A stretch of DNA of 64,000 nucleotides, taken from a virus. The position numbers were made by a program, and so were the translations under genes. The DNA is taken from IMG/VR virus record IMGVR_UViG_3300036770_002165, positions 1 through 64,000 of that record. One strand, given 5' to 3'. Positions within the stretch are counted from its first letter, which is position 1. Every line of letters begins with the position of its first letter. Below, piece after piece: positions 23,495 through 64,000 of this stretch. Under the pieces are notes generated by a model. The model saw only the letters and a program-made list of their open reading frames with translations, was not told the origin of the DNA and made no database searches.

Positions 23495-24073
23495 TTACTT
23501 AGCTATAGAATGTATAGCGAACTGCCAGTGCCACTTAGCGACAACTGGCCAATTAATGTTAGTTGTTGGGTCAGTCCATGAAGTCATGCGTGTGTCATTA
23601 GGGATAGTGTCAAAGTAATCAACTAGCTTCTTGAAGCCTAGCGACTCCATCATTTCCCACACACGTTGGTGGTGACAATTCCAGTGATGGGTTGCCCCAT
23701 CCCAGAATTCGTCCTCACGATCAGGCTGGTAGTTGTGCTCTTGGTGTTCGATGGTAGACAGAACCATATGCCACGGCTCCTTGCCATCTTTCCACCGCTG
23801 GATCGTCTTTAGAACGTCTGGCCCTACTACCAGTATCGGCGCACCAGCCTTAGCAATGCGACGCATGTCCCGCATAAAACCAGGAACAGACCGCCAGTCA
23901 ATGTGTTCGATGACATGCCCGAGATAAATGGCGTCAAAATAATCGTCAGGAAAAGGATACGGTTGATCCGGGTTAACGACAACGTCGGGTTTTGTCGTCT
24001 CGCTTTGCCAAACATCGCAGTTCACCCATCCCTCAGCGTAATGGGTACCACACCCAGCATTCAGTAGTTTCAC
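23495..24073 (-). CDS. SAM-dependent methyltransferase, class I
   Basis: 192 aa. Motif I is LLNAGCGTHYAEGW at the very N-terminus, followed by the acidic NCDVW and DDYFDAIYLGHVIEHI, with post-motif I HVIEH as in small-molecule methyltransferases. It overlaps the PhyH oxygenase by 4 bases. The substrate is not apparent; the pairing suggests two-step modification of one molecule (host lipid, sugar or virion glycan). Confidence 0.85.
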   Translation of the reverse strand: MKLLNAGCGTHYAEGWVNCDVWQSETTKPDVVVNPDQPYPFPDDYFDAIYLGHVIEHIDWRSVPGFMRDMRRIAKAGAPILVVGPDVLKTIQRWKDGKEPWHMVLSTIEHQEHNYQPDREDEFWDGATHHWNCHHQRVWEMMESLGFKKLVDYFDTIPNDTRMTSWTDPTTNINWPVVAKWHWQFAIHSIAK

Positions 24074-24849
24074 TTGTAGTAGAGCTCCAGATCAGTTTCT
24101 AGAGGAAAGTACCACCCACCGCCTGGACGGCGCAAGGCTTTTGGCATATCATTCCGGTGATGGATCCCCGAGTAGTGAGCGATGAGAGCCTTTCGCTGCA
24201 TCCCAGGTACATTTGGCCGCGACCCACGGTGCATCAACCGCCCGTGCCAGACGAGGAGATCTCCACGACTGGCAAGGTGCGATACAACGTTGTTACCGCG
24301 CTTAGCAATCTCTTCCTCAAAGAGAGGCGTCAAGATACGCTCTGAGTGCTTCGGCCATCGATGATCACGTTCGTGTGGCTCTAGAGCGGCCAAGATCTTC
24401 TTGTTCGATACCTGCGGCCACCTATGCGATCCTGGTACAAATTGGAATGGGCCAGAGTCAGGGTGGATGTCATCTAGGGCAATCCACACAGCGGCGTAGT
24501 AATCCCCAACATGGGCTGGGTTCAGGTACGAATCCTGGTGCCAATCACGTTCTGTACTGCGCCAGCCGGTCAGATTGAGGTGTAGACCCGCTGGTTCGGT
24601 GATCAGGCTCTCTAGAAGGTTGGCGAGTGGGTCCCAAGTCAGGATTTCGAGCAATTCTGGGTGACGGGTGTACGGAATTGGGTCTGGCCAGCCCATTGGG
24701 CGGTCAGAATTCTCTTTTTCCCAACACTTTTCGTACTCAACCATCAATTCTTCGGCAAAAAACGACTTATGAATGACAAAACCGTCCTCATTCCAGTCAA
24801 AAACCGAAAAATCAGGGGCTGGATCGGTCAAATCCTCAAAAGTGGGCAT
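24070..24849 (-). CDS. PhyH-type Fe(II)/2-oxoglutarate dioxygenase
   Basis: 259 aa. Contains the facial triad: HQD in RDWHQDSYLNP, and the distal His in WHGRLMHRGSRPN, plus the ALDDIHPDSGPFQFVPGSHRW stretch that defines the phytanoyl-CoA dioxygenase superfamily. It should hydroxylate an unidentified substrate. It forms an overlapping pair with a methyltransferase. Such genes occur in aquatic phages and in host secondary metabolism. Confidence 0.88.
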   Translation of the reverse strand: MPTFEDLTDPAPDFSVFDWNEDGFVIHKSFFAEELMVEYEKCWEKENSDRPMGWPDPIPYTRHPELLEILTWDPLANLLESLITEPAGLHLNLTGWRSTERDWHQDSYLNPAHVGDYYAAVWIALDDIHPDSGPFQFVPGSHRWPQVSNKKILAALEPHERDHRWPKHSERILTPLFEEEIAKRGNNVVSHLASRGDLLVWHGRLMHRGSRPNVPGMQRKALIAHYSGIHHRNDMPKALRRPGGGWYFPLETDLELYYK

Positions 24850-28520: not shown

Positions 28521-28983
28521 CTAACCGACAGGCGGTGCCACCATGAGAGTGTACGGCCTAATCATTAGGCATTGACTGCCGACGTGGGCAGTCACCTTGG
28601 GCGGGTTACAACGATAGTTGTACTTGAGGGAAACCAGGGTGACTGTCCTCGTGGGCAATCGGTGCCCAGCCGCTACGGCGGATTAGTTGCTAGCCAGCGT
28701 GTGCTGACTGGTGAAAGGGTGAGGACAATGTGAGCGCAGCACGCTCAGTCCTGGGCATGACAATGAACATAACTGCCCGGCCCCCGTACTCAGATGGGAG
28801 TGACGTCTAATCATTAGACGTTTGTAGGTTCGAATCCTACCGAGGGTGCGACCATCAAATGGTGCGAGGAGGGACAACAATCTCCCTTCGGTGTCAATGG
28901 GGCCTCACCAGCCGTGAATGGTTCGACCTGGGTATGTCGTAAAACTGCCCACCCTAATCATTAGTCACTAGGAGGTGACAGTA
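28521..28983 (+). other. Gene-free structured region, candidate non-coding RNA
   Basis: 463 bases with no credible frame but many perfect inverted repeats: AGTCACC/GGTGACT closing about 28588-28645 with TACAAC/GTTGTA inside; TGGGCA/TGCCCA at about 28652-28669; AGCGTG with a matching CACGCT across 28695-28745; the tRNA-like fold at 28780-28848; and palindromes at 28557, 28806 and 28953. The last palindrome leads into AGGAGG of the next gene. The density of stems is unlike coding or simple spacer DNA. Confidence 0.5.
28780..28848 (+). ncRNA. tRNA-like element with the palindrome in its anticodon arm
   Basis: A textbook T-arm (GTAGG, loop TTCGAAT, CCTAC at 28824-28840) is followed by CGAGGGT, which pairs with GCCCCCG at 28780-28786 except for one C-A mismatch. 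U8-A9 and a short D-arm CTC/GAG follow. The anticodon position is occupied by stem CGTCT/AGACG with loop AATCATT, which is palindrome copy 28806-28818. U33 is missing, the D-to-anticodon spacing is too long and total length is 69 nt, so a working tRNA is unlikely. A degenerate tRNA or a tRNA-mimic domain fits better. Confidence 0.45.
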
Positions 28984-46964: not shown

Positions 46965-47472
46965 TGTTTTTGATCATTCTTTCTACTGCTGACGTGGTGG
47001 TGTCCAGGTAGGGGGCCAAATCCGCAGCGAGAGATACGGGTTTAGGCTTACCCTCCATTCGGCGCATCCTTTGGATGTCTGTAATCAAATACCTAACTGG
47101 TATACGTGAATCTTGCTCTAGATTGTCAAGCGACATCTTGCGCCTATCGCGCGAAGTCTGCCCGCCGTACATCCCATAGGTAAGCCCGTTATCCAGGGCA
47201 AACGCTAGGCACTCTTTCCTAACTGAACACTTAGCGCACAGCAACCGAGCGCGGCTAAGCATGTTGCCCTGAAGGTTGGGGTTTGTTGAGTCCTTAGTTC
47301 TTTCTCTGGCCTTCTTCTGGGCCACTGTCATCCCGCTTAGATCTTCTTTTTCGGGAAAGAACACTCTGGTGTCTTTACCCTTGCAGGCTGCCTTGGAGCG
47401 CCATGCGTCATCCCCCCAGTTATTTAGTGATGGTAGTTGTACTTGTCTTTGTAGGTCTAGTTCTAGTTCCAT
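46942..47472 (-). CDS. WhiB-family regulator with insertion
   Basis: 176 aa. Four Cys for a [4Fe-4S] cluster: AACKGKD, then CAKCSVRKEC, and the diagnostic turn YGMYGGQTSRDRR (G-[VIM]-[WY]-G-G). About 30 extra residues (VAQKKARERTKDS) sit between the first and second Cys, unusual for WhiB. The C-terminal 70 residues resemble an HTH (SLAADLAPYLDTTTSAVERM). Should modulate host sigma-dependent transcription. Confidence 0.88.
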   Translation of the reverse strand: MELELDLQRQVQLPSLNNWGDDAWRSKAACKGKDTRVFFPEKEDLSGMTVAQKKARERTKDSTNPNLQGNMLSRARLLCAKCSVRKECLAFALDNGLTYGMYGGQTSRDRRKMSLDNLEQDSRIPVRYLITDIQRMRRMEGKPKPVSLAADLAPYLDTTTSAVERMIKNNALPEFI

Positions 47473-49668: not shown

Positions 49669-50043
49669 TCATCCACCAATTAGGGTAAAGAGCAGGGCTT
49701 TTACGTCGAACTCGACGCCTTGAGCCGGGAGTAGAGACAGGTCCGCGCGATTCGGGATGCGTACGTTGGCCTCTCGGCACGGGGCACACCGGCAACCTTT
49801 TCGGTATGCCTCAACAGTACCGCACTGAAGCTTTACTGTTCCGCGACGTTCTTGCGGGGTCAACCCACCCCACATACCCCAGGTTTCCGACTTACCTGCC
49901 TCAAGACATTGCGCCCATACCGGACAGCGGTGGCACGCCAGCTTGGCAATGGTGTAGTACTCGTTGGGTGAGGACGACTCAAGGGGGGGATACCACAGGT
50001 CGGCGTTCTTGTGCCGACAGAGCGCGTCCCGCATCCACTCCAT
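49669..50043 (-). CDS. WhiB-family regulator with extra Cys-rich tail
   Basis: 124 aa. WhiB core: MRDALCRHKNADLWYP, CHRCPVWAQC and TWGMWGGLTPQERR. The C-terminal extension CGTVEAYRKGCRCAPCREAN has four more Cys, resembling a zinc knuckle often found in phage WhiB proteins. Likely binds host sigma factor region 4. Overlaps the Nmad1-like gene by one base. Confidence 0.88.
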   Translation of the reverse strand: MEWMRDALCRHKNADLWYPPLESSSPNEYYTIAKLACHRCPVWAQCLEAGKSETWGMWGGLTPQERRGTVKLQCGTVEAYRKGCRCAPCREANVRIPNRADLSLLPAQGVEFDVKALLFTLIGG

Positions 50044-50817: not shown

Positions 50818-52254
50818 CTACTGCTGCTCGTCAATGTTTATTACGTTGGCTATGAAGTTATCTGTACGAGAGGCATCTAACCCGCCTCCCGGTAACTGCC
50901 TGGATATCTCCCCGGCCTTTTGGCCAAAGAGCCTAGAAAGTACACCGGCACTACCGCGGGCCTCGACCTCAATACGCATCATGTCGCGGGTGTCAGAGAT
51001 ATTCTTAAACTTGTCAACCAAGGCAAAGAGGCGATCCATCTCTGATGAAAGGGCTGGGTCAAGACCTTGTCCCTCAAGTTCCTCAGCAAACCGAGCAAAC
51101 AAAACTCGGCTTGCCTGCATCTCAATTAACGCCTGCAGCATGGCGGTCAGCTGGTCCTTGGTGCGTATCTCCACAGGCAACTTGTAACCACAATCAGAAT
51201 GTTCGCGGAATGCAGGACAACGAGATGCTAGATAGCAACTATCACACTGGCGTAGAGGACCCGATTGATACCTGATTACGGGGGTCTCTTGGGGGTCCAC
51301 TTCAATGTATTCACCCTGGTCATAGTCGGTTTGAGTACCAACCGAGACTATGTTCTCTATACCGATTACCGGTAGTAATACGCGTTCCCCCTCGTGCCGC
51401 CTTTCTAGGGGCGCGGTAGTAATAGGTGATGCTTTGGGAACCAGTTTAGGTGGGGTATGGGTTTCAGGGGTCATAGTAACTATTTCCCCTGTTTCGTTGT
51501 TTACGAACTCTTCTTCGTCGTCATCAACCTGGGGGTCATAGGCCCTAATTGTGGACTCTTCCCACGCCAACCACGAGCGGATGGCAAGTGTACCCATTGC
51601 ACTAACATCGTCTTCCATAACAGCGTCGTAGTCGACTCCGAGACGGATGATGTCTGGGCGGTGCTTCTTGCGAGACGACTCTTTCTGCTGGGCCGGGTAC
51701 CGCCGTAGCCCGTGCCCATCCCATACCTGGGTTTCCCCGTAGCGAATAACGGAAGTCCAGGAGCCGACGACTACCGCTGACCAAGGTAGGGATTCGATAA
51801 CGTCTGGCTTACTTGTTAAACCAATTAAGGAGGCTCCCCACCGCTGCGAGAGGGAGCGGATGCGCGGGGCGGTCTTAGCGTTGATTGCTTTGTCGGATAT
51901 GGCGGCTCGCCCGTATCGTTGGCATAACCACGCTAGACGCTCTAGGTCGTCCCCGTCAGACCACAGGGGTATGTATTTATCGCCCATCCAGTCACCGTCA
52001 TAGCCAGGACGACCTATGACGAAAGAGAGATCATCGATGTGTTCCCGAACGAAGTCCGTATACCGGTTCTCATCCTCATCACCTTCTGAGGTGTACAACA
52101 GAACCTCAGCACCATTGAACACGGTAGGGACGTGGAACTCCTTCACCTTGGGGATAGGCAAGTGGGTAAGGTTGACCGCCATGCTTTGTACGCCGTTAGC
52201 GATAAGCATGTTTCTGTGGGCACCCTTTTCAGCTCCGCCCAGGAATACCTTCAT
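50818..52254 (-). CDS. Unknown large protein with Cys cluster (478 aa)
   Basis: 478 aa from ATG 52254 (GGAGGG upstream, ATGA overlap). N-terminus MKVFLGGAEKGAHRNMLIAN, alpha/beta, then residues about 330-375 with CDSCYLASRCPAFREHSDCG, four Cys that could hold a metal or iron-sulfur cluster, then a helical C-terminus. It forms an overlapping trio with the next two genes. No family recognised. Confidence 0.68.
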   Translation of the reverse strand: MKVFLGGAEKGAHRNMLIANGVQSMAVNLTHLPIPKVKEFHVPTVFNGAEVLLYTSEGDEDENRYTDFVREHIDDLSFVIGRPGYDGDWMGDKYIPLWSDGDDLERLAWLCQRYGRAAISDKAINAKTAPRIRSLSQRWGASLIGLTSKPDVIESLPWSAVVVGSWTSVIRYGETQVWDGHGLRRYPAQQKESSRKKHRPDIIRLGVDYDAVMEDDVSAMGTLAIRSWLAWEESTIRAYDPQVDDDEEEFVNNETGEIVTMTPETHTPPKLVPKASPITTAPLERRHEGERVLLPVIGIENIVSVGTQTDYDQGEYIEVDPQETPVIRYQSGPLRQCDSCYLASRCPAFREHSDCGYKLPVEIRTKDQLTAMLQALIEMQASRVLFARFAEELEGQGLDPALSSEMDRLFALVDKFKNISDTRDMMRIEVEARGSAGVLSRLFGQKAGEISRQLPGGGLDASRTDNFIANVINIDEQQ

Positions 52255-52724
52255 ACATCCCTCCACGAGCGCTCAGCAGCCTTCAGGGCCTGTGTGTCAA
52301 TTTCATCTACAAGTGAGCCCCACTCCCTGATCTTCCTACCCGTATCCCATTCGGGGCGAACGATATATGGTACGGCTGCTACCAATGTGGGGATGCCCAG
52401 CTTGATGGTCTCGGCGCATGTCCTGGCGTCGTTGTCTATGTACCAGTTAATCTTGCCCGCGGCTGACCCAATGCGGTGTACTTTTTCCGCTTTGAGAACT
52501 GGGTCTTCCTCGTCTAAAAAGTCAAGCATTGATGCCTTGAACTGTTCCCGTTTAAGCCAGTCCATAAATTGCGAGCGGTCATATACCTCGTCGCATACAA
52601 CAATTATACGGCCCATGTACTTATCAAACATGGCACCCCACAGGGCTCTGCCGTCTGAGTCGGGTTGCCGTAGCGACAGGTTCTCAGCTGGCCTTGCCAG
52701 GACAGCAAAGTTAAAGACGATCAC
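52251..52724 (-). CDS. Unknown protein, HAD-like in part (157 aa)
   Basis: 157 aa. GRIIVVCDEVYDRSQFMDWL and NWYIDNDARTCAETIKLGIP resemble the Asp motifs of HAD-fold phosphatases, but the first motif is not canonical. Overlaps both neighbours by four bases, so the trio is co-translated. Function tentative. Confidence 0.6.
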   Translation of the reverse strand: MIVFNFAVLARPAENLSLRQPDSDGRALWGAMFDKYMGRIIVVCDEVYDRSQFMDWLKREQFKASMLDFLDEEDPVLKAEKVHRIGSAAGKINWYIDNDARTCAETIKLGIPTLVAAVPYIVRPEWDTGRKIREWGSLVDEIDTQALKAAERSWRDV

Positions 52725-53444: not shown

Positions 53445-54395
53445 TCAGAGCTTCTTGCCGAAACCGCGGTTACCTTTACCGCGGCCACGGTTGCGTGGTT
53501 GGTTGGGGCGCTGTGAAGCGCCTGCTGCTCCGGTTCGTCGCTGTGTGGTGGTCTGCTGTCCTGCTGCCATGTTTGATGCTCCCTGTTGGTGTTGTGAGAA
53601 GGTTGGGGAATCCCAAATGTCACCGGAACCCCAAATGTCATCAGATCCTACACTATAGGTGGACGCGCCGCTAGTGGATTGCGTTACTGGTGTTCCCCAA
53701 ATGTCATCCGTGGGACCACCAGTTGTAGCGCTCTGTGTCATCGGGAATGACCCGAGAAGGTTAACTTCTCTATTGGCCGTGGGCCTACGCAGTGGCGATT
53801 TAGCCCCTGGTTGCATAGGGCCTTGCTGCATACCTGTCTGCAGGGATTCTGCAGTTCCCATAGTGCGCCCAGCAAACTCCCCCAGACGAGCAGACTTTGC
53901 AGCTGCGGCTTGCTTGTCTGCACGTGCCTGCTGACGAGAACGGATGTTCTGTATACGCTCTGCTCGCTGTTGCTTTCCACGGTAATTTTGGTAAATGGGT
54001 GTGCCACCAAAACGAAAGTCAAGATCTGGGTCAGCCCCAGGCATACGGTCCATGGCAAAGTTGGCCGCTGTCTTGCCCAACTGTGCAGTCATACCGGCGG
54101 TGTTGGCGAGTGTTCGGTAATTGTACCCACCTGGGTTAGATGGGGTTCCACCACCACCGGGGCCGCTGATTGATACTGATCCTGAGCCAGTGTTATACCC
54201 CCAGTTACCTCCTGGCGCGGAGGAGGGGCTACCGAGTGTCGTGCGGTATCCGGGCTGATCAAGGTAGCTCCAGATGTCGTCCTCACGGCCACCGTAACGC
54301 ATGGCCATAATACGGGAGAAAGTATCGACGTTGCTGGCGTTACCCGCCATCGGGGTAGACGACCATCCTGGATTTTGTGCCTGCATTACCATCAT
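53445..54395 (-). CDS. Disordered Gly/Gln/Ser-rich protein with DDIW repeats
   Basis: 316 aa, low complexity with no membrane segment. The short motif D-D-I-W recurs (DDIWSYL, DDIWGTP, DDIWGSG, with a fourth D-I-W-D), usually with S or G after. The C-terminus is basic (NRGRGKGNRGFGKKL). Composition suits a virion or assembly scaffold with repeated linear docking motifs. No family recognised. Confidence 0.65.
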   Translation of the reverse strand: MMVMQAQNPGWSSTPMAGNASNVDTFSRIMAMRYGGREDDIWSYLDQPGYRTTLGSPSSAPGGNWGYNTGSGSVSISGPGGGGTPSNPGGYNYRTLANTAGMTAQLGKTAANFAMDRMPGADPDLDFRFGGTPIYQNYRGKQQRAERIQNIRSRQQARADKQAAAAKSARLGEFAGRTMGTAESLQTGMQQGPMQPGAKSPLRRPTANREVNLLGSFPMTQSATTGGPTDDIWGTPVTQSTSGASTYSVGSDDIWGSGDIWDSPTFSQHQQGASNMAAGQQTTTQRRTGAAGASQRPNQPRNRGRGKGNRGFGKKL

Positions 54396-54691
54396 GAACT
54401 CCAGAGACTGCTCATTGAATACCGACCAGAACCGGAGAACGAACCGTCCTCAAATGAAGTACGCATTACTGGCATACCGGATACCCAGGACCTATATGAG
54501 GGAGCGCCGTAGCGGCTGGTGTTGAGCACACTAATGATGGTGTGCTCTTGGCGAGCAAAACCAAGACGATCTGGGAAAAGAACCTGGGGTACGACAGGGC
54601 GTGTTTGCCTAATGGTCTCTGGATCGCTGATCGCGGATTCCAGGGCCAGGTCAGTAAGCATCTCCTGCCGTGTAGTCCAAGGCTTAGGCAC
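54392..54691 (-). CDS. Unknown protein (99 aa)
   Basis: 99 aa, starts MPKPWTTRQEMLTDLALESA; beta-rich C-terminal half with Ser/Gly/Tyr. ATGA overlap with the DDIW protein. Unknown. Confidence 0.62.
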   Translation of the reverse strand: MPKPWTTRQEMLTDLALESAISDPETIRQTRPVVPQVLFPDRLGFARQEHTIISVLNTSRYGAPSYRSWVSGMPVMRTSFEDGSFSGSGRYSMSSLWSS

Positions 54692-54693
54692 TA

Positions 54694-54858
54694 TTAGTAC
54701 CCTTGTGAGTTAGCGTTGTCCCCACGACCAGCGCCCATGCCACCACGAATAGTCCCCTTGATCTTTCGCGGCTTAGGTGCAGGTGCAGTAGTTGAATCAA
54801 ACCGCTCGGTTTGATCTCCTTCTGGCATTCCCTGTGGATTATAAGATCCTGATCCCAT
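54694..54858 (-). CDS. Small disordered basic protein (54 aa)
   Basis: 54 aa, starts MGSGSYNPQGMPEGDQTERF and ends GRGDNANSQGY. GAGGTAAGTG precedes the ATG, and the start overlaps the previous stop (TGATG). Belongs to the run of short virion-like proteins 53.2-58.0 kb. Confidence 0.55.
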   Translation of the reverse strand: MGSGSYNPQGMPEGDQTERFDSTTAPAPKPRKIKGTIRGGMGAGRGDNANSQGY

Positions 54859-55022
54859 CACTTACCTCGCTTTTTAATAGCAGCGTTGGCTGCCCTAATT
54901 GCTTTAGCATCGTCTCCTGTAGATTTTAGCACCTTATTTGCTACAGCAGACCACTGCTTCTTCTCAGCATTGGTGTTTACTTTTTTATTCTTTTTAGGTG
55001 CGTCAGATGGTTTCCAGGGCAT
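54858..55022 (-). CDS. Small basic helical protein (54 aa)
   Basis: 54 aa, starts MPWKPSDAPKKNKKVNTNAE, with a helix SAVANKVLKSTGDDAKAIRA. Similar short Lys-rich MPWKPSDA proteins occur in many actinobacteriophages (recalled). Overlaps next gene by one base. Unknown function. Confidence 0.62.
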   Translation of the reverse strand: MPWKPSDAPKKNKKVNTNAEKKQWSAVANKVLKSTGDDAKAIRAANAAIKKRGK

Positions 55023-55023
55023 G

Positions 55024-55533
55024 TCATCTCCACGGTGGTGCTAGGCGCTTTAGCTTGCTGCGGCGCTCCATGTTGACGACTTCCTGCTGGGGCCGAGACA
55101 ACCCACGTGGAATACCGCGGGGGCCGGTCTTACCGTCGTTGGTAAGACGCACAGGCTCCGCCCCAGGTGGGGCGAACTTCTTGCCCTGAGCCTGCAACTG
55201 CAGGCCGGTCAGGGGATTGAACTCCTGTGGCCAGATGTAATCACCCTGGTTGATGCGCTCACCTTTGTGCACGCCACGTGAATACGGTCTGGTGTTGGAA
55301 CGCATTACCGCATTTGTCAACTTATCTTGACGGCGATTAGAGGACATTGTCCCCAAATACCCGTCTGGGTACTGCACATCAGGAGATGCGCCCCAAGCGG
55401 CAAGCTGCTGGTCCTTACCGTTACGGAATACTGGGGCGGGTCCAAGCAGGGGCTGGCTGGTATTGGCATATGGGTCGTAACCCCCACCCCAATCAGTAAA
55501 AGTCTGTTGGTTAGCCACGGCTATTCGCACCAC
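55024..55533 (-). CDS. Unknown virion-like protein (169 aa)
   Basis: 169 aa, Gln/Arg/Pro-rich, mostly disordered, with YDPYANTSQPLLGPAPVFRN near the start. Sits in a cluster of similar proteins. Unknown. Confidence 0.62.
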   Translation of the reverse strand: MVRIAVANQQTFTDWGGGYDPYANTSQPLLGPAPVFRNGKDQQLAAWGASPDVQYPDGYLGTMSSNRRQDKLTNAVMRSNTRPYSRGVHKGERINQGDYIWPQEFNPLTGLQLQAQGKKFAPPGAEPVRLTNDGKTGPRGIPRGLSRPQQEVVNMERRSKLKRLAPPWR

Positions 55534-55639
55534 CCATGCTGTTCAAGATGGAAGCCTGCCCACCTCCTGTGGGGGGAACTGGGCGCGGCTTCTTCTTGAT
55601 CTTGCGCTTCTTAGAATCAGTAGTCTTCTTTGACGCCAA
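55511..55639 (-). CDS. Small Lys-rich protein (42 aa), TTG start
   Basis: 42 aa from TTG 55639, with AAGGAG 9 nt upstream; ATG 55648 would place that site one base away. Reads MASKKTTDSKKRKIKKKPRP, then PPTGGG. The beginning MASKK is shared with the 734-aa protein. Overlaps the next gene by 23 bases and the previous gene by 23 bases. Confidence 0.5.
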   Translation of the reverse strand: MASKKTTDSKKRKIKKKPRPVPPTGGGQASILNSMGGANSRG

Positions 55640-55769
55640 ATCGACCATGCTCCTTGCGTCGTTGTTTGCTTTGATGGACTACTTCTTCTTCGTATAACTC
55701 ATCAAACTGATCTTCATAGTCTGGTGAGTTAGCTAGTTTGTACCAGTCTTTTTGTGAATGTTTTGTCAT
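55617..55769 (-). CDS. Small acidic/basic protein (50 aa)
   Basis: 50 aa, starts MTKHSQKDWYKLANSPDYED. No Shine-Dalgarno is visible and the upstream sequence is A/T-rich, so start usage is uncertain, but the frame is open and phage-like and ends within the next small gene. Moderate support. Confidence 0.45.
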   Translation of the reverse strand: MTKHSQKDWYKLANSPDYEDQFDELYEEEVVHQSKQRRKEHGRFGVKEDY

Positions 55770-55784
55770 ATAGATAATAAATAT

Positions 55785-57989
55785 TTAGGGCTGCTGGCGG
55801 CGCTTCTTCTCTTCTGCCTTTTGCAAGTTGTAATTATAATTAGACAAGCCTCGTTGGTATGCCCCAACCATACCCCCGCGTGACTCAAACGGTGCTACGT
55901 GTAACGCCCTGTTGCGCATTTCAAAATCAGTAGGCTGATCCTTGGGAGCCTTAAACTCCTCCATTGCACCGGTCTCTTCGCTGTACTGTAGTGGCGGCAT
56001 AGGTCCGGTTCCGGGAACTACTGGGTACGCCTTCTTGGGCGGTTGGCTTAGCGCTGCAACAGCTTGCTGGTATGTTGCAACGAACTGCTGGCCTCGCATT
56101 GCCTGACGGGCGGCAATACCCTCTGGTGACTTGTAGAGAGCGGCCTGAGCGTTGCGGGCAACATCCTGGGCTACACGCTGGTCACCACCTGCTGGTGCGG
56201 GCCCTTGCTCTGGTGCAGGAGGGGCTGCTGGGGCTGGGCGTGTGCGTGGCGTTACGCCAGGCGAAACCTCAGTACCACGACGCCACATTGGCACTTCGCC
56301 ACGCTCCCATTTAATAGTGTCGCTGGGGCCGACTGTGCCGGTGTACATACCAGCCTCTAGGGCGGCTCCGGCACGCGGGCTGCGCTGTTTCAGTTCTGCA
56401 ATACCACGGAGTGATGGGGTTGGCATTGACCGGCCTGGGTCGCTGCGCCGCCCCAAATTACTGCGTCGGTAATCGAAGGGGACGGGAAGTCCCTTGCCAT
56501 CCTGTCCCTGCAGCTCAATATCATATGGCTGTTCGCCGCCAATACGAGGACCACCTTCGGCAAGGGGGCGCAGTTCAGAGTAGGTCTTTAGACCAAGGGG
56601 TTGCTCTGCGACTTCGATCTCACCAATAGCAGATGTAATTTCATCAATACCCATGGTGTTGATCATTTGCTTTGTGGTCCCCCGAAAGCCAGCCTTCTGG
56701 TATTCACGAAGATTTGATTGCAATAGGTCTGTACGCATTGGCGTGCCAGTGGGGTTAGCAGGGTCAACATCAGCACTTACTGGGTTTACCAGGCGGGCGG
56801 CCTGCCCTGAGCTAGTGCGTGAGGTTTTTGCTTTCGGGATATACGTAACCCCAACTTTTCCGCTGCGCCTTTCGCGACGGCGACCAACTACCTCGCGTAG
56901 CGCCCCTTCGTCAGTCAGGGGGTCCATGATGTATGGTTCATCGGGGTCGTCTGGATTGGGTGTAATCCGAAATCCTTCACGAGTTTTCAATGGGACATTA
57001 CGTTGAACATCTCGAACCACTGATCCAACTGCAGATCGCGTTGTTTCTGGGCTGACAGGTGCTTGCCCGAACATAGCTCCGAGGCCACTTACAACCTGAG
57101 ATGCCTCCGAGGCTTCCTCCTGTGTTGGGAACGTTATACGTTGTCCAGTGAGATCTCTACCAACCTTGGGGTCCCATGCTTTTATAGCAGCAGCATCAGC
57201 GGCACTCGGGGATGGGCCTGGACGACCGCCTCCGAGGATCATCGGACTGCGGCGTTGTGTCTTTTCAAAATACTCTGGCTGTTTAACTTCCTTAACAAGA
57301 CGTGTCCTCTGAGCGCCTTCGGTGATGCCGATTGACTTCTCAAGTGATCCGATTGAGTATGGCTTTGGCTTATCAAATCCCGCAGGACGGTCGGCGCTTC
57401 CAACAACTACGTCTGCCTCTGGTGTGGTATCGCTAGCGGCGCGCTTGATCTGTGTGCGTCGAGCCGTTTTTGGATCCGGGCTCATAATACGTGGTGTCTC
57501 GGCAGCACGGCCAATCGACTCCTGCTTAAGAATGTCTCCTACTGGAGTGCCCGCTCGCCGCGAAGGCATATTACGCCCCAAAACGCGAGATGAAACATTT
57601 GCTCCTGGTAGGAACCCCTGAAGGGAAGTGTCCCGAGCAGTAGCGTAATCAGCTAGTACACGCGCTGGGTCATCACTGAACTGGGTTGATAGATAGTCAG
57701 GATCAGAAATATCGATGTCCTGCCCTACATCAAGAGCCGATCGCAGGCCAGTGCTGATATCAGGGGTTTCATCTTCTTCGAGCCCGACGCTGACCATCCC
57801 GCCTTCGGTGGGATCGTAGTCTTCGACTGATCCTCCTGATAGGGCAATGTCTGATTCAGCACGCTGTTTCCGCAGGCGACGAGCTTCATCAACGCGCGCC
57901 TCAGCCTGGAGTCGCTGCTTTGTCTTTTGGCCTGTTAGCTTAGCGCGACGATTTGCAGGAGCGCTTACTCGCTTTTTCTTTGAAGCCAT
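55785..57989 (-). CDS. Large disordered structural-type protein (734 aa)
   Basis: 734 aa. Starts MASKKKRVSAPANRRAKLTG, very basic, then Pro/Gly/Arg-rich with only scattered folded segments (GTTKQMINTMGIDEITSAIG, TKTREGF-like). Such long basic/proline-rich proteins are often internal virion or assembly proteins. It opens the block 53.2-58.0 kb. No family recognised. Confidence 0.65.
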   Translation of the reverse strand: MASKKKRVSAPANRRAKLTGQKTKQRLQAEARVDEARRLRKQRAESDIALSGGSVEDYDPTEGGMVSVGLEEDETPDISTGLRSALDVGQDIDISDPDYLSTQFSDDPARVLADYATARDTSLQGFLPGANVSSRVLGRNMPSRRAGTPVGDILKQESIGRAAETPRIMSPDPKTARRTQIKRAASDTTPEADVVVGSADRPAGFDKPKPYSIGSLEKSIGITEGAQRTRLVKEVKQPEYFEKTQRRSPMILGGGRPGPSPSAADAAAIKAWDPKVGRDLTGQRITFPTQEEASEASQVVSGLGAMFGQAPVSPETTRSAVGSVVRDVQRNVPLKTREGFRITPNPDDPDEPYIMDPLTDEGALREVVGRRRERRSGKVGVTYIPKAKTSRTSSGQAARLVNPVSADVDPANPTGTPMRTDLLQSNLREYQKAGFRGTTKQMINTMGIDEITSAIGEIEVAEQPLGLKTYSELRPLAEGGPRIGGEQPYDIELQGQDGKGLPVPFDYRRSNLGRRSDPGRSMPTPSLRGIAELKQRSPRAGAALEAGMYTGTVGPSDTIKWERGEVPMWRRGTEVSPGVTPRTRPAPAAPPAPEQGPAPAGGDQRVAQDVARNAQAALYKSPEGIAARQAMRGQQFVATYQQAVAALSQPPKKAYPVVPGTGPMPPLQYSEETGAMEEFKAPKDQPTDFEMRNRALHVAPFESRGGMVGAYQRGLSNYNYNLQKAEEKKRRQQP

Positions 57990-58047: not shown

Positions 58048-58332
58048 TTAACGGATTACAGGCTTAAAGGTTATGGCAGAGATAACCTCACCATTCTCGC
58101 CCTTTATGTCATCAAATCCGATAACAAACGAGAGGTCAATCCCTCGCGGTGCGGCAAACCCGCGAGCAATAGCGCAGGCTTTGGCGGCCTGGTTAACTGC
58201 GCTGGCACCGATGGCCCGCATCTTGGGGGCCTGCCCTGCTACAACCGCTCGGGCTACGATCGAGCCCACACTCTGGGGGTTGCTCGTACCGGAAACCTTT
58301 ATTACGTCATCTACCGATAGCTCTTGAGACAT
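58048..58332 (-). CDS. SpoVS/Alba-like protein
   Basis: 94 aa. VIKVSGTSNPQSVGSIVARA, MRAIGASAVNQAAKACAIAR and GIDLSFVIGFDDI track the stage V sporulation protein S family (V-S-G-x-S-N-P, A-I-G-A-x-A-V-N-Q-A, A-R-G-x-A-P-x-G-I-D-L), a small Alba-like nucleic-acid-binding fold. Known mainly from Firmicutes, Thermus-type bacteria and some others. In a phage it could bind phage DNA or RNA, or reprogram host development. Confidence 0.88.
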   Translation of the reverse strand: MSQELSVDDVIKVSGTSNPQSVGSIVARAVVAGQAPKMRAIGASAVNQAAKACAIARGFAAPRGIDLSFVIGFDDIKGENGEVISAITFKPVIR

Positions 58333-58374
58333 TGTGTACTCCGTTATACTCTTATGGACCTACGTCCATAAATA

Positions 58375-58734
58375 CTAGGAGTAACCGGCCTCTTTTAACA
58401 GTTCAACCAAGTCACTAAGGCGCATAACAACGTATGAATCACCCAACGCTTTTTCCCCTTTACCAGGGCGTTTAACAACCAGGGCAGGGGCGGCATTACC
58501 CAGGTTAGCTGCCTGCTCTACCGTGGCATCTAACCACGCACTCAACGAGAACGCCTTCTGGTTCTTGCACTGTACGGCTACCTGTCGATTGGGGCCCTTG
58601 ATCCCATTGATATCCCCCGTATCGCCGCCGCCCTTTAGTACGGTCCGCTGTGCCTCGGGGAAACCGTTGTCGTTTAGGTACTGACGTACAAGGGTTTCAA
58701 ACGCTGTGCCCTTTTGCTTAGCTCGGTTGCCCAT
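58375..58734 (-). CDS. Hjc-like PD-(D/E)XK nuclease / Holliday junction resolvase
   Basis: 119 aa. KGTAFETLVRQYL (Glu), GGGDTGDINGIKG (Asp) and VAVQCKNQKA (Q-C-K) are the core of the archaeal-Hjc-type and VRR-like PD-(D/E)XK nucleases annotated as resolvases in actinobacteriophages. Should cut branched DNA before packaging or during recombination. Overlaps the next gene by 17 bases. Confidence 0.82.
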   Translation of the reverse strand: MGNRAKQKGTAFETLVRQYLNDNGFPEAQRTVLKGGGDTGDINGIKGPNRQVAVQCKNQKAFSLSAWLDATVEQAANLGNAAPALVVKRPGKGEKALGDSYVVMRLSDLVELLKEAGYS

Positions 58735-59401: not shown

Positions 59402-59864
59402 GAAGCCCAATACGACGGCTTAGTTCCCTAGATAGAAGTTGCGCACCGCGCTCGCAGCCCTCAAACAGAGCTTCCACAAGTTTCCGATAAGCCCGAGCAT
59501 TCTGGTACTTCTCCTGCTGAAGAACTACCCGCTCGTCTACATCACGGCGGGCCTTGGCAATAGTAACACGGTCACCCTTGGCGTCCGATCCCCACTGCTC
59601 GATAAGGACCCGGGCCTCCAGGATGCGGGCCAGGTTGGATTCCTTGTCCTCATCGATCTCAGACTTTACCAGCTCAGCCTTGGCGTAAGACACCCAGGCC
59701 ATGAACTGGGAATAGAGTTCCATGAGATCTCTGTCGTCCATGTCGTCAAGGTCGAACGGGATGGTTGGAGGGTTATCACCGGGGCGGTTGGGCAGTTCAA
59801 ACTTACTATTGAACTTTGTAACAGCAGGGTGTTCGGCTTGATCTCTACTGATGATCCGTGTCAT
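59364..59864 (-). CDS. Coiled-coil protein in the replication block (166 aa)
   Basis: 166 aa from ATG 59864, which overlaps the Cas4-like stop as ATGA; an ATG at 59900 was rejected. Acidic N-terminal (PPTIPFDLDDMDDRDLMELY), then a long coiled coil with LVEALFEGCERGAQLLSREL. Often found next to phage exonucleases in this lineage type; function unknown. Confidence 0.66.
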   Translation of the reverse strand: MTRIISRDQAEHPAVTKFNSKFELPNRPGDNPPTIPFDLDDMDDRDLMELYSQFMAWVSYAKAELVKSEIDEDKESNLARILEARVLIEQWGSDAKGDRVTIAKARRDVDERVVLQQEKYQNARAYRKLVEALFEGCERGAQLLSRELSRRIGLHGKEQRTSRFGA

Positions 59865-60733
59865 TGCCAGCAGACTTTCTGGTAGGGGCAGTACTTGCAT
59901 CCTGTGCAGTCTTTTGACTCTGCCCAGTCGGGTCGTTCGGGAGCAACATTCTCAGATAGGCATTCAATAACCAGTTTGCATTTGTCAAGAATTGGTTTAA
60001 CAATCTCTTCGTTGTACCTGACCACAAACTCTTTGACTTCTTGTGTTGGCTTCCATTCATAGATGAACACAATCTCTTCGATGCCAGTGCAGTAGAGGTA
60101 CAGATTACCCTGCCGGACATGAGAAGCAAACGGCTGTTTGATGTTTTGCCATAGGCCATCGATGTTCATGGCTCCGCTTGAGTAGTCCGCAAACAATTTG
60201 GGCTTCTCAAAGCGGACAGTGCCAACGCCTACGCTCTTGACTTCGACAAGGGCTGTACCTTGTTTATCAACCACTTTTCCATCCGCGTGCCCGAGTATCC
60301 GGTGTTCAGCGTTATGCACAGGAACCTCGCGGTACCTAATACGAACACCACCGCAGCTAGGGCAGGTATCAGGAGCAGTTGCAGTCCAGGTATGATCACA
60401 CGTCTCACAGTCCCAGTCACCTGACAGCACCCCGGCTTTCCATAGTAGGGTTTGCCATTTGTGGTGAATGGCGTGACCCTCTTCGAATACGTTTAGTCGG
60501 CTGAACGTCAGCCGCTCCTCTTTCTTAACCTCACCGGTAATGGTGTAGTACGACGACCGGGGGCACCAGTGCTTCTTGGAAAGCTCGCTGGGGTGCAGAT
60601 GGTCGGTATCTCGAAAGGTGTTGCGCATCTGCTGAGACTTGATCAACTGCATTTCTGCCAGCGGAACAAGGCGGCCACGGGACTTCAATGATTTCTGGTA
60701 CTCCTTCAAGTACCACGGTGTCTCGTCAGCCAC
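59861..60733 (-). CDS. Cas4/RecB-like PD-(D/E)XK exonuclease
   Basis: 290 aa. ILGHADGKVVDKQGTALVEVKS gives the G-x-x-D and E-x-K core. A C-terminal cluster CTGCKYCPYQKVCW with an earlier Cys (about residue 90: CDHTWTATAPDTCPSCGG) suits an iron-sulfur or zinc site as in Cas4. Likely processes DNA ends with RecA. No CRISPR array or Cas1/2 is present, so a CRISPR role is not suggested. Confidence 0.86.
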   Translation of the reverse strand: MADETPWYLKEYQKSLKSRGRLVPLAEMQLIKSQQMRNTFRDTDHLHPSELSKKHWCPRSSYYTITGEVKKEERLTFSRLNVFEEGHAIHHKWQTLLWKAGVLSGDWDCETCDHTWTATAPDTCPSCGGVRIRYREVPVHNAEHRILGHADGKVVDKQGTALVEVKSVGVGTVRFEKPKLFADYSSGAMNIDGLWQNIKQPFASHVRQGNLYLYCTGIEEIVFIYEWKPTQEVKEFVVRYNEEIVKPILDKCKLVIECLSENVAPERPDWAESKDCTGCKYCPYQKVCWQ

Positions 60734-60969
60734 TATTCAGATGCTCCTGGGTTATGCCATGCGGTGTGTAGATCTGTGTGGGGTTCAAGTACTGCTGAGT
60801 GGCACAGTTCGCAAATAAAAATATTAACCTTATTTGAATGCTCTATAACATTGTGGTATTCGACACCATCTTCAACACCAAATATGGGTTCTGACTTATA
60901 AGTAATCTGCACTATTCCTGGTGTTGAATACCCTGGGATTGAATTAGTATGAATAGTCTCTTCAGTCAT
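60733..60969 (-). CDS. Small protein with Cys-His knuckle (78 aa)
   Basis: 78 aa from ATG 60969 (MTEETIHTNSIPGYSTPGIV); an upstream ATG lies in the neighbouring gene. FICELCHSAVLEPHTDLHTAWH is a C-x2-C...H-x3-H zinc finger. Overlaps the exonuclease start by one base. Unknown. Confidence 0.63.
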   Translation of the reverse strand: MTEETIHTNSIPGYSTPGIVQITYKSEPIFGVEDGVEYHNVIEHSNKVNIFICELCHSAVLEPHTDLHTAWHNPGASE

Positions 60970-61318
60970 CGAGTCCACCCAGGTCTTCGGCCATGGCAAT
61001 AAAATCGTCTTCATTGAGTACGACGAAGTGCTTGCCACCAATATCGAACTGCAGAACGGGTGTTCTGTCGTCCAGGATCGCGCGCTGTGTTAGCTCGTTC
61101 ATCTCCTGAAGCTTAACGCTGTAGCTCTTAACGTTATTGGTCAACTTGTTCTCAATAAGGAACTTGTGGCTACGGACATCGTTCTTGCGAAGCCACCCTG
61201 AGCCTGACCCGGCGTTGCGGCTACCGCGGTAGATTTTTGCTGACCGATCTTCCTGCTTGCGTGAAGCTTTCATAATGCTGCGTCGTGCAGCTTTGGCGTC
61301 GTCCTTACCAAAAATCAC
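60962..61318 (-). CDS. Predicted PD-(D/E)XK nuclease (118 aa)
   Basis: 118 aa from GTG 61318, overlapping the RecA stop as GTGA. The pattern SGWLRKNDVRSHKFLIENKL (D ... E-x-K), with a preceding GSRNAGSGS, and the ending VVLNEDDFIAM match small phage PD-(D/E)XK endonucleases. It lies between RecA and the Cas4-like exonuclease. Confidence 0.72.
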   Translation of the reverse strand: MIFGKDDAKAARRSIMKASRKQEDRSAKIYRGSRNAGSGSGWLRKNDVRSHKFLIENKLTNNVKSYSVKLQEMNELTQRAILDDRTPVLQFDIGGKHFVVLNEDDFIAMAEDLGGLDD

Positions 61319-62331
61319 AGGAAGTACTCCTTTGCTTTCTGCTTTAGCTCTTCTTGCATTGTTAGGTCCCCGCGAACATGGGTTACTAGAGCGTCTTTGC
61401 CCTGCCACTTCTGATCGCCGTAGTTGTAGTAGGCACCCGCCCGCGTGATTACCTCAATAGCAATACAAATGTTAACGATGTCTTTTACTGTGTCGAACTC
61501 CCCAAGATGGAAAGTGTCGTGGTCAGCAAAGTAAAAGTCAACCTGAGCAACCTGTTGCGGTCGATAGGTCTTGTTCTTCATAGTACGGGCACGGATCGTC
61601 TGGCCGATGGGCTCGTCTTTATGCTTGATCCACTCATCACGCTTGACTTCCACGCGAGTGAAGTAATGGAAGTTCTTGGCCTTGCCACCGGGTGTAGTGC
61701 GCGGATCGCCGTACAAGACTCCGATCTTCTCGCGCCACTGGTTGATAATCAACCCAGTACAGCCACGGTCTTCCCGAATGAGGGAGCGCTTCTGTGCCTT
61801 TGACGACTTGCGGAAAAACTTACCTGTAAGGCGAGCGCCAAGGCCGACGGAAAACTCTTCCATCATCTTCTCTGCTTCATCACCAGGCACCAAAGCTGGT
61901 AGGGAGTCGAGGATAATGCAGTCAACAGCACGGTTTTCCATGGCACGGAGAATCAGATCGTAGGCGTGCTCCATGACGTTGGTCTCTACCACCCATAGGC
62001 GCTCAAGATCTACGCCAATCGCAGCAGCATACTCTGGTACAAATTCCTCGGCAGCAACCCACATTGCAATCCAGTCCGGATCAGCTGCCTGGTTGGCGGC
62101 GATGGTCTTGAACGCAAGAGCTGTTTTGCCTGATGACTCGTCCCCGATTATCTCTGACCACTGATTTACAGGCCAGCCACCACCAAGCATGAGGTCAAAT
62201 GCTAGGACCCCAGTTGTAATGCGAGGAAGCTCTTCTTTGACCTGGCTACCTTGGACGATGATGTCTTCGCCGTACTTTTTGTTGACGGAAGCGACGATCG
62301 ACTGGATCGTCTCCCACTGCTCAGATTTCAA
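61315..62331 (-). CDS. recA: RecA recombinase
   Basis: 338 aa. Walker A GDESSGKT at residues 63-70, Walker B in VDCIILDSLPALVPG, the L1-like loop before LTGKFFRKSS and L2-like TGLIINQWREKIGVLYGDPR. TPGGKAKNFHYFTRVEVKR completes the RecA signature. Phage RecA supports recombination-dependent replication and repair. Central gene of the leftward recombination operon. Confidence 0.93.
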   Translation of the reverse strand: MKSEQWETIQSIVASVNKKYGEDIIVQGSQVKEELPRITTGVLAFDLMLGGGWPVNQWSEIIGDESSGKTALAFKTIAANQAADPDWIAMWVAAEEFVPEYAAAIGVDLERLWVVETNVMEHAYDLILRAMENRAVDCIILDSLPALVPGDEAEKMMEEFSVGLGARLTGKFFRKSSKAQKRSLIREDRGCTGLIINQWREKIGVLYGDPRTTPGGKAKNFHYFTRVEVKRDEWIKHKDEPIGQTIRARTMKNKTYRPQQVAQVDFYFADHDTFHLGEFDTVKDIVNICIAIEVITRAGAYYNYGDQKWQGKDALVTHVRGDLTMQEELKQKAKEYFL

Positions 62332-62740: not shown

Positions 62741-63188
62741 CGTCCTCTTCCTCGTCTTCTAGATCGTACAGCTCGTCGTCTTCATCGGTGATGATAAACG
62801 TGAGGAGGTTAAATATAGCGGAACCTTTGCTGCTGTCAATCTCCCTTGGTGCAACTTCTGGCAGTAACAACATGTCGTTATCTACCAGGTGCGAAACAAG
62901 AGCCATACCGAATGACATGATTACATTCTTAGTGTTCTCAAGATCGTCCTCGTCTAGATCGTTATGTATCTTGACAACTTCCATCATCCATTCCGAGCAT
63001 TCCTGGATTGTCTGGAAGATACCGAGGTTAGTCAGGATTAGCCAGCGGCTAATAGTGTCCATTATTTCGCTCTCCTGTACCTCTTGAGAGGGTACGGAGA
63101 AACCAGCAGACGAAGCAATCTTTTGCCCTTCTAGGATAGATAGGGCCAGATAGAAATTTCGTTTGTCTACTGGGGATGTGCTCATCAT
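62733..63188 (-). CDS. Acidic protein (151 aa)
   Basis: 151 aa, helical, with a very acidic tail (EDDELYDLEDEEEDDE). Starts MMSTSPVDKRNFYLALSILE. Four bases overlap with polymerase stop. A DNA-mimic or polymerase-linked protein is possible. No family recognised. Confidence 0.65.
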   Translation of the reverse strand: MMSTSPVDKRNFYLALSILEGQKIASSAGFSVPSQEVQESEIMDTISRWLILTNLGIFQTIQECSEWMMEVVKIHNDLDEDDLENTKNVIMSFGMALVSHLVDNDMLLLPEVAPREIDSSKGSAIFNLLTFIITDEDDELYDLEDEEEDDE

Positions 63189-64000
63189 TTACCTTTAGCC
63201 TCCGCCCAGCTAGCTGCTGAGTGACAGGACACCTTAAGTGGGATGCCCTCATATGTTACTCCATCACCCATAGCCGTAACCAGCAGGTTCATCAAGTCGT
63301 CTGCCTGGCCCTGCTCTACAAGGACGACGAGTTCGTCGTGTACCTGTACCAGCAGCTTTGCCCCGTGAGGTGATAGTGCGTCGTAAACATCGATCATTGC
63401 TTTCTTGCAAATGTCAGCAGCAGACCCCTGGACTACGGCGTTTACGGCTTGCCTTTCCGCGCGCGCTCGAAGCTGCTGATCAGTAGATACAAGATCGTTG
63501 AGGTGGCGACGACGGCCAGAGAGGGTACTAACATAGCCCTTAGACTTTCCATAGGATATAACCTCTTGCTTCCATTTAGTTATTCCAGAAAACTGTCTAT
63601 AGTACTGGTCAATAACAAACTTAGCATGCTCTTCGTCAATGCCCGTTGTTCGGGCAAGCTTCTGAGCCCCACCACCGTAGGCGGTTAGGAAGTTAACGCC
63701 TTTGCCTAGCTGCCGCTCTTCTGGGGTGATCTGCTCTACTGGCTTATTGAGGCACAGCGCAGCAGCGCCGGAGTGGATGTCCGCCCCCGTTAGGAAGAAC
63801 TCGCTCATCTTTACGTCGTGGGAGAACATGCACATGACCCTAAGTTCGATCTGGTCGTAGTCGGCAACGAGCAGTTCGTAACCTTCCGGGGCCACGAACA
63901 GGCCTCGTACGTGGCTGTCGCGAGGGATATTCTGCAAGTTCGGGTTGCTTGATGAAAGACGCCCGGTGGCCGTACGGTGCAGGTGGAACGATGGGTGCAG
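63185..64000 (-). CDS. polA: DNA polymerase I, C-terminal part (continues past the edge)
   Basis: The frame runs off the right end; 271 codons are visible. Motif A is LLVADYDQIELRVMCM, preceded by GRLSSSNPNLQNIPRD; motif B has KGVNFLTAYGGG, with Phe at the position that disfavours ddNTP incorporation; motif C is LLVQVHDELVVL. This is a family A replicative polymerase palm. The exonuclease domain, if any, lies outside the window. Confidence 0.95.
   Translation of the reverse strand: MHPSFHLHRTATGRLSSSNPNLQNIPRDSHVRGLFVAPEGYELLVADYDQIELRVMCMFSHDVKMSEFFLTGADIHSGAAALCLNKPVEQITPEERQLGKGVNFLTAYGGGAQKLARTTGIDEEHAKFVIDQYYRQFSGITKWKQEVISYGKSKGYVSTLSGRRRHLNDLVSTDQQLRARAERQAVNAVVQGSAADICKKAMIDVYDALSPHGAKLLVQVHDELVVLVEQGQADDLMNLLVTAMGDGVTYEGIPLKVSCHSAASWAEAKGK

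Follow-up and report, generated by a model that had tools for sequence, protein, structure and literature searches.

Why should a bacteriophage carry a gene named for sporulation? The question is raised by an open reading frame (ORF) in the IMG/VR virus record IMGVR_UViG_3300036770_002165, of whose 95,597 bases the first 64 kb (the window) were analysed here, with the other 31.6 kb examined as separate regions. SpoVS was reportedly described in 1995, and no settled biochemical role for it was found in the literature searched. Passages of two reports on soil and marine viromes already describe phage-borne SpoVS and read it as an auxiliary gene of sporulation (PMC6172770, PMC8940887); these passages hold no analysis of its neighbourhood, lineage or substrate. 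Phage SpoVS is also named in PHROGs and UniProt. As such proteins have been reported before, the presence of SpoVS in a phage is not in itself new. As far as the literature searched shows, the new elements are its status as a core gene of one phage lineage, its diagnostic residues and the exchange of resolvases in the slot beside it.

The SpoVS gene and its predicted fold

The gene and its ribosome-binding site were located as follows.

58048–58332, minus strand: SpoVS (PF04232), 94 amino acids, phage-lineage type with Arg39 and Arg63; ATG start; supported by Pfam, PHROG and structure matches
58339–58342, minus strand: Shine-Dalgarno-like GGAG of SpoVS, read from the sequence

A profile search with PF04232 gave 69.7 bits for this ORF (cut-off 24, E 1.8e-19), residues 9–89 aligning on model positions 1–80 of 83. 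The family phrog_35646, labelled 'sporulation protein', matched it with E 3e-16, and the Thermus SpoVS proteins 2eh1/2ek0 matched by sequence with E 2e-10. The preliminary description had named the gene a SpoVS homologue, which the profile score and the agreement of the predicted fold with solved SpoVS structures confirm. Its further statement that the match is full-length applies to nearly the whole conserved domain, while about eight N-terminal and five C-terminal residues lie outside the alignment. Since the frame is conserved across hundreds of contigs with a median pairwise dN/dS of 0.07 (loci chosen by SpoVS similarity), the ORF is not a chance one, and SpoVS of this lineage is under purifying selection. 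GGAGTA is kept at the Shine-Dalgarno position among the aligned relatives. As the loci used for dN/dS had been picked by similarity to SpoVS itself, conservation was rechecked in loci picked by the neighbouring nuclease; here SpoVS was the better conserved of the two in 50 of 51 cases, with median identities to the window of 82% and 70%, respectively. By computation, the ORF is thus identified as a SpoVS of the phage-lineage type. A PADLOC search for a role of SpoVS in defence or anti-defence gave no match.

An AlphaFold model built from an alignment of 33 sequences (pLDDT 90) revealed the order strand-helix-strand-helix-strand-strand. The best matches among solved structures were the SpoVS structures 2eh1/2ek0/9a7h with TM values of 0.84–0.85, followed in Foldseek by archaeal Alba (2z7c, E 5.5e-4, TM 0.58); RNA-bound and RNase P/MRP proteins were also among the Alba-fold matches. 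The predicted model of the window protein therefore displays the Alba-like fold of the superfamily in which SpoVS has been included (PMC11621453). Archaeal Alba chromatin proteins share this fold with the model at a sequence identity of only 16–22%, and the chromatin and RNA functions are those of Alba. The Alba-like DNA or RNA binding proposed in the preliminary description would suit the predicted fold. The extra Arg39 and Arg63 do no more than hint at such binding.

A phage lineage with SpoVS as a core gene

A tail-sheath gene in the record indicated a phage with a contractile tail. The terminase (46%), the tail sheath (34%) and SpoVS (about 40%) encoded in the window found their best matches in the same cultured Streptomyces phages, namely BRock, LuckySocke, Alone3, pSt2308 and GiJojo, of which BRock has been described as a virulent myovirus (PMC7453282). 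Terminase, tail sheath and the order of the recombination block are common to BRock and the window phage, which places the latter in a BRock-like lineage. A nucleotide search of positions 50–64 kb against phage records returned no match. Two genes of the window encode WhiB-like proteins.

47134–47403, minus strand: WhiB-like protein, an actinobacterial marker (PF02467 E 4.7e-19; also matched in PHROGs)
49843–50037, minus strand: second WhiB-like protein (PF02467 E 3.3e-15)

WhiB proteins form a regulator family of actinobacterial development and, to our knowledge, are confined to actinobacteria outside phages. They were found in 32 of the 34 lineage records checked, and most uncultured members of the lineage carry two or three such genes. 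The earlier designation of the virus as an actinobacteriophage is hence well supported, both by its two WhiB genes and by the Streptomyces phages as best matches of terminase, tail sheath and SpoVS; as a sequence marker, WhiB would point to the host of the window phage at phylum level only.

SpoVS relatives were abundant in this group. A first scan confirmed 172 of them and a second one located SpoVS in at least 588 IMG/VR stretches. Together with the published viromes (PMC6172770, PMC8940887), these numbers show that the description of SpoVS as usually chromosomal understated its phage copies. Each phage record tested held a single PF04232 match, and among contigs selected by terminase SpoVS was present in six of six of at least 89 kb and absent only from two fragments, 63 and 69 kb in length. 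SpoVS is accordingly a single-copy core gene of the sampled BRock-group myovirus lineage.

The phage proteins are separated from their chromosomal counterparts. All 103 distinct lineage sequences have Arg at position 39, where all 81 chromosomal ones have Gln; position 63 is likewise Arg in 103 of 103 but mostly Ser in chromosomal SpoVS. At position 37, all chromosomal sequences have Glu, the window group has Lys or Arg, and the commonest residues of the BRock group are Lys, Thr or Tyr. The preliminary description had proposed a phylogeny against chromosomal SpoVS. In the resulting tree, chromosomal and host-like phage sequences formed a set apart from the lineage phages, and the window protein, with its Arg39 and a resolvase encoded directly upstream, fell outside that set. 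A recent transfer from a host chromosome is ruled out by this tree; rather, SpoVS of the lineage is an old phage-specific branch. SpoVS of BRock, LuckySocke, Alone3, pSt2308 and GiJojo, in some cases annotated just as hypothetical, has both diagnostic arginines and a resolvase gene directly upstream as in the window, but is only about 40% identical to the window protein and adjoins a RuvC-like instead of a PD-(D/E)XK protein. Stenotrophomonas phage TS-12 and Lysinibacillus phage LysYB1 also carry PF04232 proteins; unlike the window protein these group with chromosomal SpoVS, have Gln39 and lack an upstream resolvase. They and their relatives are likely later, separate acquisitions. A viral scan with the Lysinibacillus SpoVS did not find relatives.

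Chromosomal SpoVS (PF04232; Bacillus, Thermus 2EH1/2EK0) shares with the window protein the full domain, the fold and the invariant residues G42-A43, N47-Q48 and K51 (window numbering) at about 40–54% identity in the alignments made, but its neighbours are rny and ymdB, whereas that of the window SpoVS is a resolvase. In a Firmicutes-dominated set of chromosomal loci, spoVS lay downstream of recA in 50 of 78 and of rny in 56 of 78 (within the fetched flank); for the actinobacterial loci checked, these figures were 9 of 10 and 10 of 10. Descent of the phage recA–spoVS arrangement from such a chromosomal recA–rny–spoVS block was considered and is unsupported: the phage RecA is UvsX-like and only about 32–34% identical to the best chromosomal RecA of the fetched loci.

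SpoVS exceeded the cut-off in 127 of 396 genomes of the phylum to which Streptomyces belongs. Among these 396 Actinomycetota genomes, no full-length SpoVS of the lineage type stood out except in a genome with a Streptomyces block. Matches were found in merely 3 of 296 Streptomyces genomes, all three beside a BRock-type RuvC-like gene; SpoVS is thus absent from the sampled Streptomyces chromosomes outside BRock-like blocks. The three genomes in which the RuvC-like gene adjoins SpoVS are our loci L265/L359, L360 and L361, the first also encoding a phage-type RecA with 49% identity to that of the window. These blocks could represent a prophage, a plasmid-like phage or a co-assembled phage.

Exchange of nucleases upstream of SpoVS

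In the window, SpoVS stands in a block of recombination and replication genes.

58352–58371, minus strand: perfect hairpin of 20 bases with 8-bp arms, TTATGGAC GTAG GTCCATAA, between the resolvase stop codon and the SpoVS start and ribosome site
58375–58734, minus strand: putative branched-DNA/Holliday-junction resolvase of the PD-(D/E)XK type (PDDEXK_15; PHROG 244; phrog_244 E 1.5e-28; PF24608 30.1 bits, cut-off 27)
59861–60733, minus strand: Cas4-type exonuclease (phrog_2506 E 2.7e-38), with a homologue at the equivalent relative place in Streptomyces phages
60962–61318, minus strand: second, constant Holliday-junction-resolvase-like protein (PHROG 2002, E 2.4e-18 for the frame 60962–61408), with a homologue in BRock and LuckySocke
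61315–62331, minus strand: RecA/UvsX-like recombinase (Pfam RecA E 2.2e-51; phrog_97 E 9.7e-61)
63185–64000, continuing to 65266 of the record, minus strand: DNA polymerase (phrog_17 E 2.9e-70; gene call)

Read along the minus strand, the order is DNA polymerase, RecA, the PHROG 2002 protein, the Cas4-type exonuclease, several small genes, the PD-(D/E)XK protein and SpoVS, with a DpdA-like gene following further on. The PD-(D/E)XK gene lies 42 bp upstream of SpoVS, and its product is a putative Holliday junction resolvase by its PHROGs label. Streptomyces phages show the same order of the block, except that the gene preceding SpoVS encodes a RuvC-like protein. When nuclease families were assigned from Pfam and PHROGs, the gene directly upstream of SpoVS encoded a PD-(D/E)XK protein in 225 lineage loci, a RuvC-like protein in 12 as well as in the chromosomal blocks of Streptomyces, and an endonuclease VII (EndoVII) in 6, numbers in which some contigs were counted more than once via different scans. 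The sole exception was the locus L115, in which the RuvC-like match is further upstream. Conversely, SpoVS was present in 80 of 80 loci picked by their PD-(D/E)XK protein. Caution is required with all these counts, as they are inflated by a single lineage with largely fixed gene order, and adjacency within one lineage can reflect inheritance instead of co-function.

The SpoVS tree, computed from a short protein and with many weak forks, requires the type of nuclease to have changed at least four times. Two comparisons locate the exchange: SpoVS of L105, which has a PD-(D/E)XK neighbour, is 100% identical to that of L106 with an EndoVII neighbour, and L105 shares about 86% DNA identity with L102 (EndoVII) on both flanks, the similarity being interrupted precisely over the nuclease gene. 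Therefore, the nuclease was replaced in place and SpoVS stayed. Three unrelated nuclease families, PD-(D/E)XK, RuvC-like and endonuclease VII, have been exchanged in the slot upstream of SpoVS. Resolvase families are commonly interchanged among phages in general, so that such swaps do not require SpoVS, and a specific SpoVS–nuclease pairing is not established because SpoVS was not swapped along with the nuclease.

Many relatives carry a hairpin of different stem sequence at the place equivalent to 58352–58371, and many others have none. Arms of at least 6 bp were detected in 20 of 84 distinct spacers, compared to a mean of 4 for shuffled ones. The hairpin of the window is a possible intercistronic RNA element; Rfam gave no match to a known RNA element, either there or anywhere else in the window.

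Function of the phage SpoVS

We tentatively favour, with a confidence somewhat short of even, a role of SpoVS as an Alba-fold nucleic-acid-binding architectural accessory of the phage module for recombination and branched-DNA resolution. The ligand of SpoVS would be nucleic acid, above all phage DNA that is branched or undergoing recombination, with RNA as the alternative, and the protein would work as an architectural accessory to the phage RecA, the Cas4-type exonuclease, the resolvases and the DNA polymerase. It may act beside the resolvase encoded immediately upstream during the resolution of concatemeric or recombining DNA before packaging. Nucleic-acid binding, a preference for DNA over RNA, co-transcription and co-function with the resolvase are what we infer from the evidence above. 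As the nucleases were swapped while SpoVS remained unchanged, any cooperation would probably proceed through a shared DNA substrate and not through a tailored protein–protein contact. The host-like SpoVS of TS-12, LysYB1 and other phages, with no such nuclease upstream, argues against this reading, as does the low net charge given below. A bolder version, which we regard as rather unlikely, couples resolvase and SpoVS functionally: SpoVS would bind branched DNA in general and work with whichever of the three nucleases is encoded upstream; by extension, and in view of its recA-linked chromosomal place, the ancestral task of SpoVS would be recombination and its sporulation phenotype secondary.

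Alba-fold proteins often bind RNA, and a post-transcriptional regulator that binds phage or host mRNA, possibly the hairpin in its own leader, and tunes expression of the module is the serious rival to an accessory of recombination, since RNA-binding proteins occur among the Alba-fold relatives, chromosomal spoVS lies near rny, the RNase Y gene (56 of the 78 Firmicutes-dominated and all 10 actinobacterial loci), and a hairpin of varied stem precedes SpoVS in many relatives. The surrounding phage genes, however, serve DNA recombination and replication, and the hairpin is missing from many relatives; we consider this reading improbable on balance. A general phage nucleoid protein, which coats, compacts or shields DNA from host nucleases independently of the resolvase, would agree with the predicted Alba fold, with a strongly conserved single-copy core gene and with a genome in which the DpdA-like gene suggests other DNA protection. 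The net charge of SpoVS (about +1 to +2) is nevertheless below that of a strongly basic nucleoid protein, and its constant place is behind the resolvase and not among structural genes, both of which leave such a protein with little probability.

The name of the family suggests instead a modulator of host differentiation, septation, sporulation or dormancy. Deletion of spoVS alters septation and sporulation in Bacillus (PMC8510167), passages of published virome reports interpret viral spoVS in this sense (PMC8940887, PMC6172770), and the phages also encode WhiB, of a regulator family of actinobacterial development. Yet, BRock-like blocks aside, SpoVS is missing from the Streptomyces chromosomes sampled, which thus offer no SpoVS pathway for a phage to mimic; the gene belongs to an old phage-specific branch instead of being a recent host copy, and it is located in a recombination block. 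A published survey of gut phages for sporulation genes leaves spoVS unmentioned in its main text. This silence and the lack of a SpoVS of their own in the sampled Streptomyces chromosomes make control of host sporulation or dormancy the weakest of the named rivals, and quite improbable. An effect on the cell cycle, dormancy or sporulation of the host, as considered in the preliminary description, is consequently unsupported, given the 3 of 296 Streptomyces genomes, the tree and the position in the recombination block. It is more likely that SpoVS helps to process phage DNA than that it steers host spores or dormancy. A large and common phage group thus holds a core SpoVS beside exchangeable junction nucleases, and its cultured hosts of the genus Streptomyces have none of their own. 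This arrangement connects SpoVS directly with DNA recombination in a way that can be tested, with cultured Streptomyces phages as test material, and cautions against taking viral spoVS as evidence for dormancy control.

Several other features of the genome were recorded. Downstream of SpoVS, a run of low-complexity or disordered-looking proteins is encoded at 53445–57989 (minus strand); one of these, of 734 amino acids, had neither a PHROG match nor a phmmer match in the fetched loci. The DpdA-like or queuine-tRNA-ribosyltransferase-like protein is encoded further on at 50818–52254 (minus strand; phrog_887 E 3.4e-35 for the frame 50818–52266), its annotated counterpart downstream of SpoVS in BRock being gp36, and 7-deazaguanine modification of DNA is a possible function. 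ARAGORN called a tRNA of 70 bases with the anticodon TCA (stop-reading or selenocysteine type) at 28780–28849 (plus strand), a call with no Rfam match at the gathering threshold. A phytanoyl-CoA dioxygenase-like protein is encoded at 24070–24849 (minus strand; PF05721 E 1.8e-19), and a Dps/ferritin-like protein at L082:9461–9895 (genome positions 73461–73895, plus strand; PF00210 E 9e-17).
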